Below, piece by piece: positions 1,966 to 10,131 of a stretch of 13,377 nt of DNA. Where the stretch lies: positions 1 to 13,377 of the forward strand of contig WRIO01000006.1 of NCBI GenBank assembly GCA_009782695.1. Reading direction: 5' to 3'. The stretch is from Candidatus Cloacimonadota bacterium. Its GTDB lineage: Bacteria; Cloacimonadota; Cloacimonadia; Cloacimonadales; WRIO01. Every line of letters starts with the position of its first letter. Position 1 is the first letter of the stretch. The notes under the pieces are model-generated. The model was not told the origin of the DNA and did not search any database. It worked only from the letters and a program-made list of their open reading frames with translations. Position numbers and translations under genes: made by a program.

Positions 1966-2151
1966 TTGGCAAAAAAATCTTTAGTAATAAAAGCTAGTAG
2001 AAAGCAAAAATTTAAAGTGCGTCAGTATAATAGATGTCAGGTCTGCGGTAGAGCAAGAGGCTACTTCCGTGACTTCGGTATCTGTCGCCTTTGTTTCCGC
2101 AAACTAGCTTCGAACGGAGAGATACCAGGCGTCACCAGAGCGTCTTGGTAG
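1966..2151 (+). CDS. rpsN: 30S ribosomal protein S14, zinc-binding short type (type Z)
   Basis: This encodes 61 residues starting with TTG at 1966, six bases after a strong AAAGGAG site. The product has the four zinc-ligand cysteines as CxxC (CQVCG, near residue 24) and CxxC (CRLCF, near residue 40), followed by the S14 tail ending GVTRASW. This short C+ form is the type found in Gram-positive bacteria, Thermotogales and several candidate phyla, unlike the roughly 100-residue zinc-free form of enterobacteria. The residue written M at the start would be read from TTG by initiator tRNA. In most genomes rpsH follows at once, but here a terminator follows 13 bp after the stop, so this is the last gene of the transcript. 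Confidence 0.96.
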
Positions 2152-2164
2152 ATCCAAAAAATAT

Positions 2165-2201
2165 AAACGGACGCCGACATATACGGCGTCCGTTTTCTTT
2201 T
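2165..2201 (+). terminator. Intrinsic terminator closing the ribosomal protein operon
   Basis: A perfect 12-bp inverted repeat pairs AAACGGACGCCG (2165-2176) with CGGCGTCCGTTT (2184-2195) across a 7-base loop. The T-rich run TTTTCTTTT follows, starting inside the stem. It lies 13 bp after rpsN and is a textbook Rho-independent terminator on the + strand. Its position shows that the spc operon really ends after rpsN in this genome. Confidence 0.9.
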
Positions 2202-2457
2202 GGAGTGCTACGCACAGATGAAAGTTGTTTAACCACCCCGTCAACAAGTTGCCACCCCTCCACATTGGAGGGGAATTTTCGGAGTGCTACGCACGGATGA
2301 AAGTTGTTTAACCACCCCGTCAACAAGTTGCCACCCCTCCAAATTGGAGGGGAATTTTCGGAGTGCCACGCACGGATGAAAGTTGTTTAACCACCCCGTC
2401 AACAAGTTGCCACCCCTCCAAATTCGAGGGGAATTTTCGGGGTGCTACGCACAGATG
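2202..2457 (+). repeat. Three tandem 79-bp intergenic repeats plus a partial fourth
   Basis: Units start at 2202, 2281 and 2360 with a constant 79-bp period, and a 19-bp truncated fourth unit starts at 2439. Each full unit has a head GGAGTGCTACGCACGGATG, a middle with TTAACCACCCCGTCAACAAG, and an 8-bp inverted repeat CCCCTCCA/TGGAGGGG before GGAATTTTC. Units differ by only a few bases; copy 3 has one mismatch in the inverted repeat. A period that is not a multiple of three rules out a repetitive protein. No spacer variation is present, so this is not a CRISPR array. It fills most of the gene-free stretch 2152-2512. Confidence 0.93.
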
Positions 2458-2462
2458 TGAAC

Positions 2463-2484
2463 GGAAGGCAGAGGGCTGCCTTCC
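2463..2484 (+). repeat. Hairpin repeat GGAAGGCAG / CTGCCTTCC
   Basis: A 9-bp stem (2463-2471 with 2476-2484) encloses the loop AGGG. It follows directly on the truncated fourth head of the 79-bp repeat. A second copy is at 10960-10981, with the same loop and one compensated base pair in the stem (G-C here, A-T there). There is no T-tract, so it is unlikely to be a simple terminator. It lies 28 bp before the ung start. Confidence 0.75.
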
Positions 2485-2512
2485 CTACGAAATTAGGAAA
2501 CAGTATAATAAT

Positions 2513-3178
2513 ATGGTCAACCTAAACAACGATTGGGATGCTCTGCTTGCACCAGAGTTCCAAAAAGAGTATTATATCAAGCTACGGCAGTTCTTGATAG
2601 CAGAGTATCAGACAAAGACTATTTACCCCGATAAACACGATATTTTCAATGCTTTTAAGCTGACCCCTTACAATGCCACCAAGATAGTCATACTCGGGCA
2701 AGACCCATATATAAACCCTTCGGAAGCACAAGGACTATCTTTTTCTGTTCCCAAAAATATCAAGATCCCCCCATCCCTGGCGAATATTTTCAAGGAGCTA
2801 CACAACGATATAGGCGCGGCTATTCCCCCACACGGATGTCTGATAGAATGGGCTTTGCAAGGAGTTCTGCTCCTAAATACCGTTCTGACAGTCCAGCAAG
2901 GTCGTAGCCATTCACATGCTAATAAAGGTTGGGAAATATTCACCGACAATGTGCTCCATATCCTAAATCAGAAGGACGCACCTGTAGTTTTCCTTTTATG
3001 GGGAAACCCCGCCAAAGCAAAGGCAGTAGCACTAAATAACCCAAAACACCTCGTGCTAACAGCAGCACATCCTAGTCCCTTGGCAGGAGGCAAATTCTTT
3101 GGCTGTCGGCACTTCTCAAAGGCAAATGACTTTTTAGCCGAAAATGGTGAGGCGCGGATAGATTGGGGCTTTATGTAA
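2513..3178 (+). CDS. ung: Uracil-DNA glycosylase, family 1
   Basis: This enzyme removes uracil from DNA as the first step of base excision repair. The start is placed at ATG 2513, giving 221 residues that align with the usual family N-terminus; the longer in-frame reading from 2363 would only translate the upstream repeats. Visible motifs are the water-activating loop GQDPY with catalytic Asp64, GLSFSVP (74-80), LLNTVLTV with the uracil-recognising Asn122, and the HPSPLAGG minor-groove loop with catalytic His186. Position 67 is Ile where most members have His (GQDPYH), an unusual change beside the active site. Expression may come from a promoter in the repeat region, but none is recognisable. 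It converges with flhA across 23 bp. Confidence 0.95.
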   Translation: MVNLNNDWDALLAPEFQKEYYIKLRQFLIAEYQTKTIYPDKHDIFNAFKLTPYNATKIVILGQDPYINPSEAQGLSFSVPKNIKIPPSLANIFKELHNDIGAAIPPHGCLIEWALQGVLLLNTVLTVQQGRSHSHANKGWEIFTDNVLHILNQKDAPVVFLLWGNPAKAKAVALNNPKHLVLTAAHPSPLAGGKFFGCRHFSKANDFLAENGEARIDWGFM

Positions 3179-3201: not shown

Positions 3202-5316
3202 TTATTTATACGATACGCTGATTTTTGATTCTAATGGTATATGCGTGGGTATCTCGTTATAAGCTATCACAGGCAACGAAGGCAATGTCGGCTCTATCAA
3301 GCGGCGGAGGTAGGCACGGATATTCGGTGTGACGATGATCACTGGTGTCAGCCCTTCTTTTAGCATTTCAGTGCTGGCTTCTTTGAGGTCGCTGTATAAC
3401 ACGCTAACTATTTCCGGAGGCAATGAAGCTGCATAATTCTTTTGTTTTAACTGGTTTACGGTGTCTATAATCAGTTGTTCTAATGAGGCTTCTAAGGTGA
3501 TACCGTAGACTGTGCCATCGGCAGAGACAAACTTTTTGGCTATAGTGCGGGACAGATTGAACCGAACATATTCGGTCAGGACTTCGATATCACGGGTTGC
3601 AGGGGCATAGTCCGCAAGGGTCTCCAATATAGTAATAGTATCGCGTATAGGGATACCTTCTCGCAGTAGATTTTTAAGAACTTTTTCGATATTGCCCACA
3701 GATAAAAGGTTCGGCACGAGTTCGGTCACCACCGCGTCATTTTCCTTTTTCACATTATCGAGAAGTTTTTGCACTTCTTGGCGGGTTATCAGCATATCAG
3801 CGTGGCTTTTTATGATCTCCGAAAGGTGTGTAGCTATCATAGCCGAAGGCTCTATCACGCTGTATCCGTGCATTTCGGCGATACTCTTTTTGTCCTCTGT
3901 AATCCACACAGCATTTAGTCCAAAAGCAGGTTCTTTGGTCTCGATACCTTTGATGGGTTTATCCACAGTGCCGGGGTCAAGGGCTAAATAATGATTTACC
4001 AAGCACTCGTAAGTTGCCACCACTTCGCCTCGAATTTTCACGATGTATTGGTTTGGTATCAAGGCGATATTATCACGCACGCGTATAGCAGGCACCACAA
4101 CGCCTATCTCTAATGCAAGCTGCTTTCGTAGGCTGGTTATCCTGTCGAGAAGGTCACCTTTTTGGGTCTCATTGACCAGCGAAACAAGGCTGTAACCAAT
4201 CTCTAATTCGAGCGGGTCTATCCGCATAATGCTTTCCAGCTCGCGAGCCTTCTCTTCTGGCGAGTTTGCCGCTTCTGTCTCAGCTTGTCGTTGCTCATCT
4301 TCTCGCCTAGCAGTCAGTCTCTGCTCCTCTTCGGACTCAACTTCTACCACTTTTGCCCTCGAAACACTCCACCCGAAATAGGCTAAACCTAAACCAGCGG
4401 GAGCAAATAAATACCACGGCATGCCAGGGGCAAAGGCAAAGACTACCATGATCACAGCCACAGCGTAAAGAACCTTTGGCTCTTTGAACATCTGCGTGAG
4501 AACCTCTTCGCCGAGATTTGACTTTGAGCCTGCCCGAGTGACTATAATACCTGCGGACACCGAAACTAAAAGACCTGGTATTTGCGACACTAAACCGTCA
4601 CCGATAGATAAAGTAGTGTATGTGCTGAGTGCGTCAAAAAAAGTGTCTCCTCGTAGAACCATTCCTAGCACGATACCACCCAGAAAGCTAATAAATAGTA
4701 TAAAAATACCTGCTTTGGCATCACCTGACACGAACTTACTAGCACCGTCCATAGCTCCATAAAAATCACCTTCACGGCGTATATCATCACGCCTTTGGCG
4801 AGCTTCTGCTTCTGTGATGATACCGTTGTTCATATCAGCGTCCACAGCCATTTGACGACCGGGCATAGAGTCTAATGTAAAGCGGGCAGCTACTTCAGCC
4901 ACACGCCCAGAACCCTTTATCACGACTATAAAGTTTATGATAAAGATGATGATAAAGATGATCACCCCAACCACGGGTGGGTCGCCGACCATAGCTCTCC
5001 CGAAGACAGCGATGATAGTGCCTGGGTTCCCTGTCTGCAAAATAGCTCGTGTAGTCGCCACATTTAGTGAAAGACGGAAAAGTGTAACTATCAGTAGCAA
5101 GCCGGGATATACAGAAAATTCAGTGGGTCGCAAAAGATAAAGCGGAGCAAGCAGTATGATAAAAGAAATCATGAAATTCATCACAAGCAAAACATCTATC
5201 AGCCAACCGGGTAAGCTAAATAGCAATATAGATAATATTGCTATCACACCCACCATTATTACGGCGTTTGAACCCTTTCCTAAGCTAACTAATAGTGCAT
5301 TCTTTTTTTCTGCCAC
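3202..5316 (-). CDS. flhA: Flagellar biosynthesis protein FlhA (type III export gate)
   Basis: FlhA is the large inner-membrane component of the flagellar type III export gate; its cytoplasmic domain forms a nonameric ring that docks chaperone-substrate complexes. The product has 704 residues, the usual size. Hydrophobic segments, probably eight, lie between about residues 17 and 318. The FHIPEP signature region is clear at about 138-165 (GRVAEVAARFTLDSMPGRQM). A charged linker (about 320-358) precedes the soluble C-terminal domain from about 362 to the end. The start is GTG 5316 with an AGAGGA site five bases upstream. No other flagellar gene flanks it (flhB, flhF and fliPQR are absent here), so it is a solitary copy. 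The FlhA rather than virulence-type homologue assignment rests on overall sequence similarity read by eye. Confidence 0.95.
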   Translation of the reverse strand: MAEKKNALLVSLGKGSNAVIMVGVIAILSILLFSLPGWLIDVLLVMNFMISFIILLAPLYLLRPTEFSVYPGLLLIVTLFRLSLNVATTRAILQTGNPGTIIAVFGRAMVGDPPVVGVIIFIIIFIINFIVVIKGSGRVAEVAARFTLDSMPGRQMAVDADMNNGIITEAEARQRRDDIRREGDFYGAMDGASKFVSGDAKAGIFILFISFLGGIVLGMVLRGDTFFDALSTYTTLSIGDGLVSQIPGLLVSVSAGIIVTRAGSKSNLGEEVLTQMFKEPKVLYAVAVIMVVFAFAPGMPWYLFAPAGLGLAYFGWSVSRAKVVEVESEEEQRLTARREDEQRQAETEAANSPEEKARELESIMRIDPLELEIGYSLVSLVNETQKGDLLDRITSLRKQLALEIGVVVPAIRVRDNIALIPNQYIVKIRGEVVATYECLVNHYLALDPGTVDKPIKGIETKEPAFGLNAVWITEDKKSIAEMHGYSVIEPSAMIATHLSEIIKSHADMLITRQEVQKLLDNVKKENDAVVTELVPNLLSVGNIEKVLKNLLREGIPIRDTITILETLADYAPATRDIEVLTEYVRFNLSRTIAKKFVSADGTVYGITLEASLEQLIIDTVNQLKQKNYAASLPPEIVSVLYSDLKEASTEMLKEGLTPVIIVTPNIRAYLRRLIEPTLPSLPVIAYNEIPTHIPLESKISVSYK

Positions 5317-5436: not shown

Positions 5437-5997
5437 TTACTTTATGCTTACCCTCGCAACATTTTTTAGCCAACGTTGTGAGAAGCTATCTTCTGGCAAG
5501 ATTAATCGGCAGGTATATTCGCTTTTATTTTTTTCAAAGGCGAGCAAAATCAACGAATCTTTGTTTTCGTATGGTTCTATCACTACTCTGGCTCCGTCAG
5601 CCGCAATAAAAGTGAGCCTTTTGTAGTCCAATCTTTTTATGCCTGAGAGCTGTATTATTTGGTCTATTTCATACACTTTCAAGTATTTATCTTTATCTTC
5701 GCCCACATAATTTTCGTAAAAATTTAGTAGGACCTCTATGGTGTAGAGGTCGTTTGGGGTATCGTCTGCGGAAGCTATCTGTCGCAATTCTGCGAAATTT
5801 ATGCCCCGTCTCTGCAAAATAGTTTTATATTCTAAGGTCTCCGACCTTCCTTCGTCGTCATCGATTGTGAGGCTACCTACCGCCGAACGTGGAAGCAACC
5901 ATAGTAAAAAAGCCAAGACTATCACGAAAAAGATAACGACTATCCAGAAGATCCTTTTAAAATAAGCTTCTGTTGATTCAATAGCAGGTAACTTTAT
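5437..5997 (-). CDS. Membrane-anchored protein with one SUOX-like domain; probable AUA start
   Basis: The stop is at 5437-5439. The first ordinary start codon in frame is GTG 5925, which would cut a hydrophobic segment in half. The frame continues upstream and encodes a polar leader with KR just before a 20-residue transmembrane helix (residues 16-35 of the long form), so the true start must lie upstream. The best ribosome-binding site, AGGAGG (6010-6005), is seven bases from ATA 5997, which overlaps the stop of the preceding gene; that reading gives 186 residues. The C-terminal part (LSGIKRLDYKRLTFIAADG through RWLKNVARVSIK) resembles the SUOX-fold halves of the protein encoded at 7337-8224. 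It is the last gene of the four-gene operon. The function is unknown; it is probably a membrane-tethered partner of the two upstream exported proteins. Confidence 0.7.
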   Translation of the reverse strand: MKLPAIESTEAYFKRIFWIVVIFFVIVLAFLLWLLPRSAVGSLTIDDDEGRSETLEYKTILQRRGINFAELRQIASADDTPNDLYTIEVLLNFYENYVGEDKDKYLKVYEIDQIIQLSGIKRLDYKRLTFIAADGARVVIEPYENKDSLILLAFEKNKSEYTCRLILPEDSFSQRWLKNVARVSIK

Positions 5998-7337
5998 TCT
6001 GCTGCCTCCTCTTTGATAGAATACTTTATCACTCCGACCATGTCTTCTATCCAGGCTCGCCCATATCTTTCTTTATCCACGCTCATTGGCATATTGTCCA
6101 GTCGACCGTGATTCCCCCCAGTTGCCACGAAGTGCATACCGTGGTCAGAAAATATGATATAATCCCCCTGCCATTTCTTCAAGAGCTCTTCCACATAACC
6201 GCCAACTGCGTTTAGTTCTCTTTGCAAAAACATTCCATCCGGACCTCTGGCATGAGCCCCTCGGTCTATCCCATGAAAATGCACAAGCAACATATCAAAA
6301 TCTTGGTCTAAATATTCGAGTGCACTGGCAAAAATCTCGTCGTCAGTCGTGCCGTTTCTATTTTGGTCTGTGTGGTTTATCACAGGGTATTTTGAGCTAA
6401 CAAAGCTGTGTGATGTCTCCAAAATATAGGCTTTCTCGATGTCGAGCTGCATAAACACTTTTAGAGGTCCTCTGGGAAAGCCGTCCATATTCCCAGTACC
6501 GACCACCCTATACGCAGCCGATGTAGTAGCTGGATACACGGTTCTCATCGGCTCGAGACCTATTTTGTTTAGATAGATATCCCATCCCCTTGCCTCACAG
6601 TCAGCCAAAAGACTCGCGCCCAAGCCGTCTAAAAATATCAGCAAAAGCGGTCGCTTGGGAGAGACTTCAGCTATCACCGGGTAAATATCATAAATGCTTT
6701 TCTGCGGGAAATCCTTCCACACTATCATCACCTCAGACTTTGGGATATCTCGCATGCTAAAATAAGAGCCGTCAAAAACCAGATTTTCGGCAAACTCCTG
6801 ATAGGTATAGACCTTCTCGCCTATATCGGTCACCACCAAAAGAGAATCGGGTATGCTATCAAAAAACCGAACAAAACCACTTTCCTTTTTTTTGTATCGC
6901 GTATAGCCTATCACTGCTTTTGTCCCTAAGGGAATCTGCTCAAACCCCCTCAAAATCTCTGCATAAGGTCTCACAAAAAAAAGGTGGTTTAGCCCCTCAA
7001 ACACAGCCAGCTGATACCTGGGGCTTTCCCTCTCGACAGCTATATAGTCTAGGTCGTGTAAGCCTGCCACACCCGGCTGCTTGACTTTTAGATTCCACAC
7101 CCCTTCCTCAAAAGATATACTTGCAGTGTGCAGGCTATCTGCCACTATAGCCACTGCATCGCCATTTTTAGCCACAAACAGCATCTGTGTAGTGGTTACC
7201 TCTTTTAGATACATAAAGCTACCGGGAGGGGATATATTATGTTGGCGGGGTATATCCCCCTTTACTGTCAGAAACGGTTGCGATGAACACGACAGCACAA
7301 AGCATAGAAAAAGAGCTATACAGACTATCTTTCTCAT
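5994..7337 (-). CDS. Lipoprotein with alkaline-phosphatase / nucleotide-pyrophosphatase domain
   Basis: This encodes 447 residues from ATG 7337, which overlaps the previous stop by one base (TAATG). The start is chosen because it gives a clean lipoprotein signal (MRKIVCIALFLCFVLSC, lipid Cys17); a longer in-frame reading adds 19 residues inside the upstream gene. Residues 230-412 form an alkaline-phosphatase-superfamily core close to phosphodiesterase/nucleotide pyrophosphatases: metal Asp in FLDGLG (about 237), a Thr nucleophile in YPATTSAAY (about 271-272), HFHGIDRGAH (Asp358, His362), SDHGM (Asp398, His399) and GGNHG (His410). All expected metal-ligand positions are present, so it should be active outside the inner membrane. 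Residues 40-210 hold two segments that weakly resemble SUOX-like units. The substrate is unknown; a nucleotide- or phosphate-bearing cofactor is a guess from context. Confidence 0.82.
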   Translation of the reverse strand: MRKIVCIALFLCFVLSCSSQPFLTVKGDIPRQHNISPPGSFMYLKEVTTTQMLFVAKNGDAVAIVADSLHTASISFEEGVWNLKVKQPGVAGLHDLDYIAVERESPRYQLAVFEGLNHLFFVRPYAEILRGFEQIPLGTKAVIGYTRYKKKESGFVRFFDSIPDSLLVVTDIGEKVYTYQEFAENLVFDGSYFSMRDIPKSEVMIVWKDFPQKSIYDIYPVIAEVSPKRPLLLIFLDGLGASLLADCEARGWDIYLNKIGLEPMRTVYPATTSAAYRVVGTGNMDGFPRGPLKVFMQLDIEKAYILETSHSFVSSKYPVINHTDQNRNGTTDDEIFASALEYLDQDFDMLLVHFHGIDRGAHARGPDGMFLQRELNAVGGYVEELLKKWQGDYIIFSDHGMHFVATGGNHGRLDNMPMSVDKERYGRAWIEDMVGVIKYSIKEEAAE

Positions 7338-8224
7338 TATTCTTTGTCGACAGCTCCTACAAATGATATGCCATACCAGTCCACATCGTCCCAATTTGTG
7401 ATCTTTTTCATATTTGGATAGGTCATAAAGTGGTGTTCTGCGGAGATAAAATCTATAAAATCTTTGTAAACTACATTCCCTTGTTTGTCTATATTTTCAT
7501 AGAAAAATATAGTTTTGTCATTCTGTGAGATGATCATGATTTCCTTTACCCACATAGCCGACGGTATATCAGAGGCATACAGCGAATACGAGGTCTCATC
7601 GTCTAGCAGAAAAGCATTTTTGAAATATGACAATGGCATAGTATGTTCTACACCGTCAGCTGAAACTAACCGCACTGGACCGGTTGCCTTCCTATCCATA
7701 GAATTTAGTATGTCCATAAATTTGTAGCCTTTTAATGGATCAAAATGCATCCGGATATGGTCAAGTATCGTGTGATACGAATAGACGCGCAACGGGTGGT
7801 AAATCTCGTTTTTTTCGTGGTAAACTATCTGCTCGATATCGGCAATCCAATACAAATCTAGAAGCTCTTCGCCCACTAAACGATATTGGTCTTTCTTTAA
7901 TCTGGCACCGTTTCGGGCGGTGGCTATCAAGGGATTAAATTCCTTGATCTGCTCTTTGGTCAGTCTGACCATATAATGGTCGGCTGCCTTGAACTCCAAC
8001 GCATCAAAACGATATATGCCATAGTGGTGTATAAAATCGGACAAGAACACTCCCTGCCAGACTTCTGTGTTTACCACTCCTCGCTTGTCACGAGTTGTCA
8101 CCACTTTGCCTAAATCATAGTCTCTCTCGTTGAAAGTCCCTATCTGCTGGTCATCTTCCCATACTTCGATAGCAAAAAGACTTATCCCCAATAATAATAT
8201 TGCTAGCAATACTATCCTATTCAT
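7337..8224 (-). CDS. Exported protein with two SUOX-fold (molybdopterin-oxidoreductase-like) domains, no cysteine
   Basis: This encodes 295 residues from ATG 8224, six bases after an AAGGGGGG site. A signal peptide covers about residues 1-18 (cleavage near LFA-IEV), with no lipobox. Two halves show the pattern of the oxidoreductase molybdopterin-binding fold. The first (about 20-136) has WQGVFLSDFIHHYGI, FKAADHYMVRL, ARNGARL and YRLVGEE, ending YWIADIEQIVY. The second (about 143-240) has YKFMDIL, VRLVSADGVEHTMPL, and ends MWVKEIMII. The whole protein has no cysteine, so the metal-binding Cys of sulfite oxidase or YedY is absent and redox catalysis is unlikely; ligand binding is more plausible. 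It lies 42 bp after the ECF S-component gene and overlaps the lipoprotein gene by one base, so the three are surely co-transcribed. Confidence 0.72.
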   Translation of the reverse strand: MNRIVLLAILLLGISLFAIEVWEDDQQIGTFNERDYDLGKVVTTRDKRGVVNTEVWQGVFLSDFIHHYGIYRFDALEFKAADHYMVRLTKEQIKEFNPLIATARNGARLKKDQYRLVGEELLDLYWIADIEQIVYHEKNEIYHPLRVYSYHTILDHIRMHFDPLKGYKFMDILNSMDRKATGPVRLVSADGVEHTMPLSYFKNAFLLDDETSYSLYASDIPSAMWVKEIMIISQNDKTIFFYENIDKQGNVVYKDFIDFISAEHHFMTYPNMKKITNWDDVDWYGISFVGAVDKE

Positions 8225-8266
8225 TATTTCCCCCCTTAGACAGCTTTTTTTATAAAAACTGCCTAA

Positions 8267-8827
8267 CTATATAATTTTGAATTTTTTCATTTCTCCGAAT
8301 ATTATTTCAGCTAAAAATCCTCCAAAAAGCCCCGATATAGTAGCCGTAATCAATGCTATCACTAAAAGCAATGGTGGTAGCTGCATAACCACAAGCGACA
8401 CTATCATCACACCTGTTAGATTTGCAAATATCGTGTATACACAAAATACCAGCAAGGTCTCACCGCGTAAAAATAGTGCAAAAACTTCCACCACTAAACC
8501 CGGTAAACCGTAAGTAATGAGCGTAAAGGCACCATGTGAGCCAAAAGATCCTAGCATCATCACTACCAAACCTTGTGCCACACCAAAAAGCAATGCCACA
8601 CCCCGCTTATTTACTATCACTCGAGCTAGCACCATCCACATCAGCAGAAACCCTCCCGATAGCGAACCACCGGGTATGCGGAGCGCTGTGGTGAACGTGT
8701 GAAATACAGGGTTTAGTATAGGTTTGATAGCCAGTCCGATAGCACAAAACACAGCTATCACTACCAAATCAAACAGCTCGAACCTGCCACTATATCTATC
8801 TTTTAAAGTCAATCTATTGCCGTTCAT
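8267..8827 (-). CDS. ECF-transporter substrate-binding (S) component-like membrane protein
   Basis: This encodes 186 residues with about six hydrophobic helices (near 20-40, 56-75, 78-95, 102-122, 125-148 and 151-178), the size and topology of S components of energy-coupling factor vitamin transporters. The first helix contains AVFCA (Ala25-Ala29), matching the AxxxA motif through which S components contact EcfT. The RIPGGSLSGG segment before helix 2 and the YGLPGLVVE segment fit the broader S-component/YkoE-like group. No ATPase or EcfT gene is nearby, so it would use a shared module encoded elsewhere (group II arrangement). ATG 8827 has no clear ribosome-binding site. It is the first gene of the operon and has a putative promoter at 8885. 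The substrate cannot be read from sequence. Confidence 0.68.
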   Translation of the reverse strand: MNGNRLTLKDRYSGRFELFDLVVIAVFCAIGLAIKPILNPVFHTFTTALRIPGGSLSGGFLLMWMVLARVIVNKRGVALLFGVAQGLVVMMLGSFGSHGAFTLITYGLPGLVVEVFALFLRGETLLVFCVYTIFANLTGVMIVSLVVMQLPPLLLVIALITATISGLFGGFLAEIIFGEMKKFKII

Positions 8828-8890: not shown

Positions 8891-8950
8891 GTAAAAAAAG
8901 AAAGATGTTCCTATAAGGTAGGATTTAATAAAATTATAAATTATAATTTG

Positions 8951-9174
8951 CACGAAGTGCTTTCATTCGTCCGAAGAACACCACCAAGACGATGTGGAGG
9001 ATGTGTCTGCTCTGCAGAATGTGAAGGATGTGTATACCTCAACGGCACGAAGTGCTTTTATCCGTGCGGAGCACACCACCAAGACGATGTGGAGGATGTG
9101 TCTGCTCTGCAGAATGTGAGGGATGTGTATACCTCAACGGCACGAAGTGCTTTTATCCGTGCGGAGCACACCAC
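8951..9174 (-). repeat. Two 95-bp tandem repeats plus a 34-bp partial third
   Basis: Units start at 8951, 9046 and 9141 (plus-strand coordinates) with a 95-bp period; the third stops at 9174. Each begins CACGAAGTGC on the + strand. Read on the - strand, the unit end gives GTGCTCCGCACGGAT followed by AAAAGCACTTCGTGC, so its head matches the head of the 79-bp repeats at 2202. The first unit has diverged at the head. The 95-bp period shifts frame, so the open frame across this region (8948-9271) is not a gene. The array occupies most of the gene-free stretch 8828-9315. Confidence 0.9.
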
Positions 9175-9193
9175 ATTTCTAATTTCTAATTTT
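9175..9193 (-). repeat. Second copy of the AATTAGAAATTAGAAAT motif
   Basis: On the + strand this reads ATTTCTAATTTCTAATTTT, the reverse complement of the motif at 3177-3196. It abuts the truncated third unit of the 95-bp array. Confidence 0.45.
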
Positions 9194-9216
9194 AAAAGAG
9201 TGGGTAACCACAAAAA

Positions 9217-9251
9217 CTTTATAGCTGTTTATAAAAACCTCAATAACTGTG
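9217..9251 (-). repeat. Left arm of an imperfect inverted repeat around the outer-membrane protein gene
   Basis: Read on the - strand this segment contains CACAGTT, then TTTATAAACAGCTATAAAG. Nearly the same sequence lies in direct orientation on the + strand at 10196-10227, so the two arms point towards each other's reverse complement and bracket the gene at 9316-10131. Confidence 0.55.
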
Positions 9252-9270
9252 AAAAACTGTTTTATATTTA

Positions 9271-9300
9271 GGGGGGCTGCTCTGAGTAGGGCAGTCCCCC
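9271..9300 (-). terminator. GC-rich hairpin after the outer-membrane protein gene
   Basis: A 10-bp stem pairs GGGGGGCTGC (9271-9280) with GCAGTCCCCC (9291-9300), including one G-T pair, around a 10-base loop. It lies 15 bp beyond the stop of the - strand gene. On that strand the stem is followed by TAAATATAAAACAG, which is A/T-rich but not a clean U-tract, so termination is probable but not certain. Confidence 0.6.
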
Positions 9301-9315
9301 GGTTATTTGTCTATA

Positions 9316-10131
9316 TTAGAACGAATATTTTACGCCTAAACTGAACCCGATGATAGCATCATCATCATTGTCAGCGCCTAAGTTACTGACAGGAAGTGCA
9401 AATTCGACTGCAAGTCCATCTACAGGAAGTATGTTGAAATCTATCAAAGGAGTGATGGTCATGCCTTCGAGGTCCATACCGTCTTCAAAAAGAGGCATAG
9501 CAATCTCTATTTCACCATAGAACCATTCGTGTTCAAAGTATGGAGTGATCTTTAGGTAATTTAAGAAGATGTCTTCTGATGGTTCTGTTAGCCAGTTTTC
9601 TAATTTCAGCTCACATCCCCAAGTGTCAGCCATTCCTCTTTTGTCACGAAGTCTGTTTAAGTTCATAGTGAGGTTTAATCCGACAAAGTCCATAGCTTCG
9701 GTATCTTCATCTCCAGCTAATATGAGAGGTAAGTCCAATCTAACAAAGAAATCGAAACTTGGCTCGAATTTGTATCTAAATCCAGGTGTGAGCCATGTCT
9801 CTCCATCTTTGTCACTATCCATAGGCATCGTGATACAAAGGTCGAGGATAGCAGCCATATTGTCGTTGAAGTTGTAAGTAGCTTCGACTTCTATTTCCAT
9901 ATCTCCGTCTGCATCGCTATCCAATGGATTATTATAGATTAGATTGCCCCATATTTCGAGTGCATCATCCATAAAAGCACCATCGTATTCTATTTTGACT
10001 TTGATAGATTCGTCATCATCCATGTCTGTATTTGGTTCTACATAATGCACACCAGCAGTGATGCCGACTTGTGCGATGGCAAGTGTGAAAATAAATGTCA
10101 TCGCTAGTAATAACATAATATATTTTTTCAT
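9316..10131 (-). CDS. Putative outer-membrane beta-barrel protein with calcium-type Asp loops
   Basis: This encodes 271 residues from ATG 10131, with a TAGGAG site about ten bases upstream. A signal peptide spans residues 1-20 (MKKYIMLLLAMTFIFTLAIA, cleaved before Gln21). The mature part is rich in alternating polar and hydrophobic strands and ends in KYSF; a C-terminal Phe is the usual signal for insertion by the BAM complex. Two DxDxDG motifs, DSDADG (71-76) and DSDKDG (105-110), look like calcium-binding loops and could sit in extracellular turns. The protein is strongly acidic. No named family is recognised; a porin-like or structural role is the best guess. It is a single-gene unit followed by a GC-rich hairpin and bracketed by an inverted repeat. 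Confidence 0.75.
   Translation of the reverse strand: MKKYIMLLLAMTFIFTLAIAQVGITAGVHYVEPNTDMDDDESIKVKIEYDGAFMDDALEIWGNLIYNNPLDSDADGDMEIEVEATYNFNDNMAAILDLCITMPMDSDKDGETWLTPGFRYKFEPSFDFFVRLDLPLILAGDEDTEAMDFVGLNLTMNLNRLRDKRGMADTWGCELKLENWLTEPSEDIFLNYLKITPYFEHEWFYGEIEIAMPLFEDGMDLEGMTITPLIDFNILPVDGLAVEFALPVSNLGADNDDDAIIGFSLGVKYSF

Follow-up and report, generated by a model that had tools for sequence, protein, structure and literature searches.

A Four-Gene Locus of a Cloacimonadota Bacterium as Candidate Part of an Uptake System for the Molybdenum/Tungsten Pyranopterin Cofactor

YkoEDC is a group I energy-coupling factor (ECF) transporter of thiamine that contains an S component of Pfam family PF09819 (YkoE, structure 5edl), EcfA-type ATPases, and EcfT. 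Vitamin B12 uptake of the BtuB type in diderms combines a TonB-dependent receptor (TBDR) with an inner-membrane importer for a large cofactor. For the molybdenum cofactor (Moco), the usual description is that each cell requiring it synthesizes its own. Here we analyzed four genes on the minus strand (positions 5437–8827) of a 13,377-nucleotide stretch of Candidatus Cloacimonadota bacterium (contig WRIO01000006.1, assembly GCA_009782695.1), which is referred to as the window. They encode an S component, two proteins with domains similar to sulfite oxidase (SUOX), and a phosphodiesterase (PDE) lipoprotein. With a probability of approximately 0.7, these genes encode that half of a system for taking up (salvaging) the molybdenum/tungsten (Mo/W) pyranopterin cofactor which acts at the inner membrane and in the periplasm. 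Its substrate would be the intact cofactor, as Moco or, more probably in this case, as the tungsten cofactor. The set found in relatives resembles YkoEDC in its PF09819 S component, EcfA-type ATPases and EcfT, and a Cloacimonadota thiamine twin of YkoEDC also adjoins a TBDR, as the window-like set does. Unlike YkoEDC, the window-like set is accompanied by the RF01055 riboswitch and not by a thiamine pyrophosphate (TPP) riboswitch, its thiamine contacts are replaced, and SUOX-like and PDE proteins are added. The combination of a TBDR with an inner-membrane importer is shared with BtuB-type uptake, but the ATP-binding cassette (ABC) part is of ECF type, and no cobalamin riboswitch appeared among the Rfam matches of the Cloacimonadota and Bacillota loci scanned. 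The system would work like the known ECF and TBDR vitamin importers with common parts, and its novelty lies in the substrate class and the SUOX-like binding proteins.

In the literature searched, whose coverage excluded bioRxiv and most subscription journals, no description of a bacterial Moco importer was found, nor anything linking the Moco riboswitch with TonB and a transporter or Cloacimonadota with the molybdenum cofactor. A 2013 survey of riboswitch regulons, in its accessible part, places no Moco class under coenzyme uptake (PMC3766115). Caenorhabditis elegans takes up Moco from bacteria, and how it crosses membranes is asked in the available text of PMC9793310. For bacteria, the present gene set puts names to possible components of a pathway of this kind.

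The initial annotation described four tightly packed genes for an ECF S component with an AxxxA motif, two SUOX-like proteins without the molybdenum-ligand Cys, and a metal-complete PDE lipoprotein; this description was confirmed overall, although the SUOX similarity in the window is weak. The S component (8267–8827, 186 residues) matched PF09819 with 40.8 bits (cut-off 25.2; E = 3e-10), belongs to a subfamily without the thiamine-contact residues, and carries AIGLA in helix 1, consistent with AxxxA. PF12822, the general ECF S family, had no match in the genome of the window, which leaves PF09819 as the sole family of the S component. A gap of 42 bp separates this gene from that of the exported, 295-residue SUOX1 (7337–8224), whose stop codon overlaps by one base (7337) the ATG of the PDE lipoprotein gene (5994–7337). 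The last gene encodes SUOX2 (5437–5997), a membrane-anchored SUOX-like domain without the Cys. An overlapping or near-overlapping start had also been claimed for this gene, which has no ATG; an open reading frame (ORF) from GTG begins at 5925 and ends at 5437. AGGAGG at 6010–6005 lies at a suitable distance from ATA at 5997, a codon in the same frame that overlaps the PDE stop (ATAA), and the form starting there has a longer membrane helix than the GTG form. For these two reasons the overlapping start is likely, though not certain, with GTG 5925 as the alternative. None of the four proteins matched any NCBIfam family above its cut-off.

The distribution of the set was examined by scans of 98 genomes of the order and by clustering the genes of 60 fetched neighborhoods. 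SUOX1 is present in 62 of the 98 genomes, including that of the window. S component and SUOX1 occurred together in 48 of the 60 neighborhoods, as direct neighbors in 46 and separated by a single small ORF in two, which is more than chance. An EcfA-type ATPase was within reach in 44 of these 48 loci, EcfT in 36 (always together with the ATPase), SUOX2 in 24, a lipoprotein of family C4 in 19, a short lipoprotein of family C7 in 19, the full PDE in seven, and a TBDR in 16, where contig ends and ORF calling lowered the counts somewhat. The PDE slot is thus filled by the whole PDE or by its N-terminal part alone. In the fullest loci, L035 and L052 among them, the genes run in the order C4 lipoprotein, S component, SUOX1, PDE, SUOX2, EcfA, EcfA′, TBDR, and EcfT; for L035, Pfam gave ABC_tran twice, the TonB plug, and CbiQ. 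The nearest NCBIfam names for the TBDR are BtuB and hemin models, far below their cut-offs. The assembly of the window comprises 309 contigs and is 64% complete, and another of its contigs (C143) carries an RF01055 riboswitch, the C4 lipoprotein gene, and the start of a TBDR gene cut by the contig end. Divergent from this unit, C143 also bears a PBP_like_2 solute-binding-protein gene (2004–3035). In the window, direct repeats of roughly 100 bases were seen by eye at 8948–9271, just upstream of the S gene, a place occupied in relatives by the lipoprotein gene and the riboswitch; the repeats are possibly a scar left when the set split. A dCMP-deaminase-like gene (family C8, named by eye) directly precedes the S gene in 14 of the 48 loci, all from one family of the order.

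RF01055 is the Moco/tungsten-cofactor riboswitch and was counted at the gathering score; one of 93 matches, in G035, was below this cut-off and was left out of the S-gene tally. It was detected in 64 of the 98 genomes, in 10 of 12 fetched Cloacimonadota loci and in seven of 11 further ones, three of these seven being lipoprotein-TBDR loci. On the same strand and within 3 kb upstream, it was found for 31 of 63 window-like S genes versus 0 of 12 genes for YkoE-type S components, and 27 of the other 32 window-like genomes have it elsewhere. The order of riboswitch, C4 lipoprotein, and TBDR recurs in L078, L086, L087, L088, L090, L133 (the genome of the window), L138, and L151. Readings of the set as a vitamin B12, flavin, or thiamine system were rejected, as RF01055 riboswitches were the only ones given by Rfam scans of these fetched Cloacimonadota loci. 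At least eight genes of the aldehyde:ferredoxin oxidoreductase (AOR) family have RF01055 within 500 bases upstream; this is a minimum and not a rate, since the distance was measured for 35 AFOR_N positions selected from a longer list. According to the available part of Regulski et al. (2008), RF01055 regulons comprise synthesis genes, oxyanion importers, and cofactor-using enzymes (PMC2408646). The same RNA family is present here, but that part names no cofactor importer and does not mention “TonB” or “cobalt”. In G023, which is positive for the synthesis gene MoaC, RF01055 precedes a solute-binding-protein ABC importer, MoeA, MoaA, MoaC, MOSC, and a MogA-like gene, an arrangement in which synthesis genes stand behind this switch instead of the uptake set.

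The P3 hairpin was replaced by a short linker in 26 of 28 riboswitch copies inspected, not all of which lie upstream of an importer; five alignments display the gap, and the riboswitches of L032 and L196 carry a hairpin at the P3 place. Because of these 26 copies, the tungsten cofactor, as used by aldehyde:ferredoxin oxidoreductases, would be the form most sought. Regulski et al. (2008) tied P3-lacking forms to the tungsten cofactor, and in the same available text the deletion of P3 did not switch specificity (PMC2408646), so this tie is only a correlation. They also located two odd P3-lacking RNAs before putative sulfite oxidases of Syntrophomonas wolfei (PMC2408646, in part); these “sulfite oxidases” may be SUOX-like parts of the present system. 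Elsewhere in the order, RF01055 directly precedes an aldehyde dehydrogenase gene (PF00171) in G012, G019, and G005 (L134, L137, and L143), an enzyme that may replace the cofactor-dependent AOR under cofactor scarcity, and it lies 0.2–0.3 kb before an [FeFe]-hydrogenase gene in G003 and G002 (L144 and L146).

Cofactor synthesis and use were then compared across the 98 genomes. A genome was regarded as importer-positive when the window-like S component or SUOX1 was present, and as enzyme-positive when AFOR_N, PF01568, or PF02738 was present (71, 24, and 75 genomes, respectively). All 65 importer-positive genomes possess a Mo/W-enzyme family, and the importer is missing from all 13 enzyme-negative genomes (Fisher p = 1.1e-7, uncorrected for kinship). 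MoaC was detected in three genomes (G010, G023, and G092), all importer-negative, and hence in 0 of the 65 importer-positive genomes; these three are among the 20 enzyme-positive genomes without the importer. MoaE was found in 0 of the 98 genomes at the threshold used and was rejected as a synthesis marker, since even the genomes with MoaC lack it; another molybdopterin synthase may exist in the three MoaC-positive genomes. Proteins of PF00994 of the MoeA/MogA type were seen only in the same three genomes, and the other 50 of 55 matches have a CinA-like span and length, with both of the two scanned being CinA. This indicates that no known metal insertion remains in the importer-positive Cloacimonadota.

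The similarity of SUOX1 to sulfite oxidases resides in its N-terminal half, which is followed by a weakly similar second half. A search of PDB with the SUOX1 profile gave the sulfite dehydrogenase SorA (E = 0.0015) and the pterin-binding proteins 7kp2 (E = 0.028) and 7kom (E = 0.048), and the SUOX2 profile also gave SorA (E = 0.005), matches that are weak but consistent. SUOX2 had no Pfam match above the cut-off, and its family profile aligned with the N-terminal half of the SUOX1 family (hhalign 99.1). The molybdenum-ligand Cys is not conserved, as the best Cys column reached 26% of 58 SUOX1 and 4% of 26 SUOX2 sequences. Ten residues (W56, G58, D82, Y84, R115, W126, D190, P221, M224, and W225) are invariant in 37 aligned SUOX1 sequences; of these, Tyr84 aligns with a Tyr of 7kp2, and Trp126 is outside the aligned stretch. 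A whole-database protein search with SUOX1 retrieved itself and one relative of 51% identity, and nothing else. PruR is a periplasmic SUOX-fold protein of Pseudomonadota without the Cys that, in the available text of PMC13259868, binds simple reduced pterins. SUOX1 resembles PruR in being exported, SUOX-like, and free of this Cys. The partners of PruR in that text are c-di-GMP or kinase regulators (DcpA and DTB), whereas the neighbors of SUOX1 are transport genes. From these profile matches SUOX1 is proposed to be a periplasmic cofactor-binding protein, and the system would give a function to Cys-less SUOX-like proteins now annotated as molybdenum oxidoreductases. A second SUOX1-like gene was observed beside the lipoprotein-TBDR pair, away from the S locus, in L086–L090.

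The PDE lipoprotein combines a family C7 domain at its N-terminus with a PF01663 phosphodiesterase/nucleotide pyrophosphatase domain (E = 2.3e-8, 34.5 bits against a cut-off of 23). As judged by eye, the PF01663 motifs of the window protein carry D, T, D/H, D/H, and H as anticipated for the family. In the alignment of its relatives, D237, T272, D358, H362, and H399 are nearly invariant and D398 is invariant, which we take to be the metal ligands and the Thr nucleophile; several of these residues are lost in the PDE of L177. The PDE profile matched nucleotide pyrophosphatases in PDB (best E = 5.3e-9). The short C7 lipoprotein corresponds to the N-terminal part of this protein without the catalytic domain (hhalign 100). 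The C4 lipoprotein exhibited weak profile similarity to SUOX domains (hhalign 81–91); its kinship rests on these weak scores, as the search of PDB with its profile gave signal-peptide matches only. In the short C7 lipoprotein (L036, L039, L040, and others), a Cys pair occurs in P-x-V-C-N-I...E-I-C, the two positions being Cys in 19 and 17 of 21 sequences, and the window PDE has Ala at both by eye. The pair is possibly a disulfide or a metal ligand.

On the computed gene set, riboswitch linkage, MoaC absence, and Mo/W-enzyme presence, we infer the following order of binding, cleavage, and transport. Passage of the cofactor across the outer membrane would be the task of the TBDR and its lipoprotein, which the genome of the window has on the other contig. 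In the periplasm, either anchored or unattached, the SUOX-like proteins without the Cys would hold the pterin in the manner of sulfite-oxidase-fold proteins. In those genomes that have it, the PDE lipoprotein would cleave the nucleotide from a dinucleotide form of the cofactor, and the S component with EcfA, EcfA′, and EcfT would carry the cofactor into the cell. Scarcity of the cofactor would presumably raise expression through RF01055. The initial annotation suggested a salvage system without naming the cofactor, and the rest of the set (lipoprotein, TBDR, EcfA, EcfA′, and EcfT) lies outside the window. The proposal gained support from the S-component and nucleotide-pyrophosphatase (NPP)-type PDE families, and from three observations along lines that it had pointed to: the genes lie together in many genomes of two phyla, a cofactor riboswitch was found at the loci of relatives and on C143, and Moco synthesis, judged by MoaC, is lost from the importer-positive genomes. 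It is also reasonably probable that such a system, dedicated to uptake of the complete cofactor, let a large part of the phylum lose Moco synthesis and rely on the cofactor of others. Anaerobic communities would then be expected to contain Mo/W-cofactor auxotrophs and to show cross-feeding, and the cofactor, if the proposal is true, is a shared good in them.

A scan of named-species genomes with the S alignment extended the set to a second phylum. Among 132 loci, 80 were kept, mostly of Cloacimonadota, with 25 labeled Bacillota and one labeled Thermoleophilia (L188); a locus labeled Armatimonadetes (L222) probably corresponds to G041:C55, a relative of the window. A SUOX gene is nearby in 57 of the 75 loci with a recognized S component, 44 of which also have EcfT, and S component and EcfT without SUOX occur in 11 of the 75. 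SUOX, S component, ATPase, and EcfT are together in 13 of the 25 Bacillota loci, and the order SUOX1-S-PDE-SUOX2-A-A-T was seen in four of them (L186, L190, L199, and L209). SUOX proteins of L199 and L211 exceed the PF00174 cut-off. RF01055 lies upstream of the set in six of seven Bacillota loci and in none of the nine loci of a second batch, five without and four with SUOX. MobB directly follows EcfT in all five Bacillota loci checked (L186, L190, L199, L205, and L211). L190 also has a flavin mononucleotide (FMN) riboswitch, located some 3.5 kb ahead of its RF01055. Genes for FMN-binding domains (PF04205) precede SUOX1 in L190, L199, and L205, ApbE occurs in L196, and L205 has a DUF364/DUF4213 “heavy-metal chelation” protein; these are possibly redox partners or serve metal handling.

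The family of the S component, PF09819, is that of YkoE, and this kinship speaks for import of thiamine or its pyrimidine as a rival function. The order of the window, however, has 12 separate YkoE-type paralogs, which scored 103–110 bits against PF09819, versus 39–71 bits for 63 window-like S components; PF09819 matched 23 of the 23 members of the window-like alignment. At six of the 12 YkoE-type loci (L233–L244), a TPP riboswitch and a TBDR are present, so these paralogs are likely a thiamine importer of the same design, whereas Rfam scans of the window and of the fetched window-like S loci of Cloacimonadota gave 0 TPP matches. The thiamine contacts of YkoE include W49, Glu77, and Q95 in the available text of PMC5037267. 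They were transferred by alignment through 5edl, where the Trp column adjoins an alignment gap. W49 and Q95 are both kept in 12 of 12 YkoE-type paralogs, and neither is retained in the window-like group (0 of 23), in which they are replaced by Y/L/N and Pro, respectively. Glu77 is uninformative, as the corresponding paralog residue (Q78) is Gln in 11 of the 12. From these replacements, a substrate other than thiamine is most likely for the window-like S component, and import of thiamine or its pyrimidine is very improbable. A PDB chain search with the window-like S profile gave no match at E up to 1.

An unlikely alternative, in which a pterin precursor such as cyclic pyranopterin monophosphate, metal-free molybdopterin, or a simple pterin is imported and the cell completes the cofactor, draws on MobB next door in the Bacillota loci and on PruR, the best-studied Cys-less SUOX protein, with its simple reduced pterins (PMC13259868, in part). 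Such completion is at odds with the restriction of MoeA/MogA-type PF00994 proteins to the MoaC-positive genomes and with the lack of MoaE throughout. Import of molybdate or tungstate, with the SUOX-like domains holding the oxyanion, is improbable. RF01055 does often control molybdate/tungstate transporters (PMC2408646, available part), 16 of 23 Bacillota genomes are able to make the pterin, and in L199 a FecCD-type importer belongs to the run led by this riboswitch. However, without MoaC in any importer-positive genome of the order the oxyanion has no pterin to join, and the SUOX-like domains, the NPP-type PDE, and MobB suggest a pterin with phosphate or nucleotide. In addition, the oxyanion importers known from these genomes are ABC systems of the common type with a solute-binding protein.

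Several findings weigh against uptake of the intact Mo/W cofactor. An Rfam scan of the window gave two tRNAs only and no RF01055; ECF ATPases are not adjacent in the window, and EcfT was not found in its 64% complete genome. RF01055 is absent from the whole genome in five of the 63 window-like S genomes and from four SUOX-bearing Bacillota loci (L212, L219, L223, and L229). SUOX1 of the window is just below the PF00174 cut-off (E = 2.6e-4, 21.1 bits against 24), a weak similarity, and the truncated site of PruR is probably unable to hold Moco, as stated in the available text of PMC13259868. Many relatives carry the N-terminal part of the PDE and no catalytic domain, which makes cleavage the weakest of the proposed steps. 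The genomes belong to one order and are non-independent, so the importer-enzyme statistics are to be read as uncorrected for kinship, and both importer and MoaC are missing from 17 enzyme-positive genomes, of which seven are at least 90% complete (G004, G007, G025, G026, G031, G045, and G048). Of the 23 Bacillota genomes to which S loci led, the above 16 have MoaC, as do four of the six with both set and riboswitch. As MoaC is common there, the set is no proof of auxotrophy in Bacillota, where uptake would add to synthesis.

The four genes are flanked in the window by two further genes outside the set. One encodes a FlhA-like protein (3202–5316), which was named by eye, and the other a β-barrel-like protein (9316–10131), which was named by eye and from weak Pfam matches.

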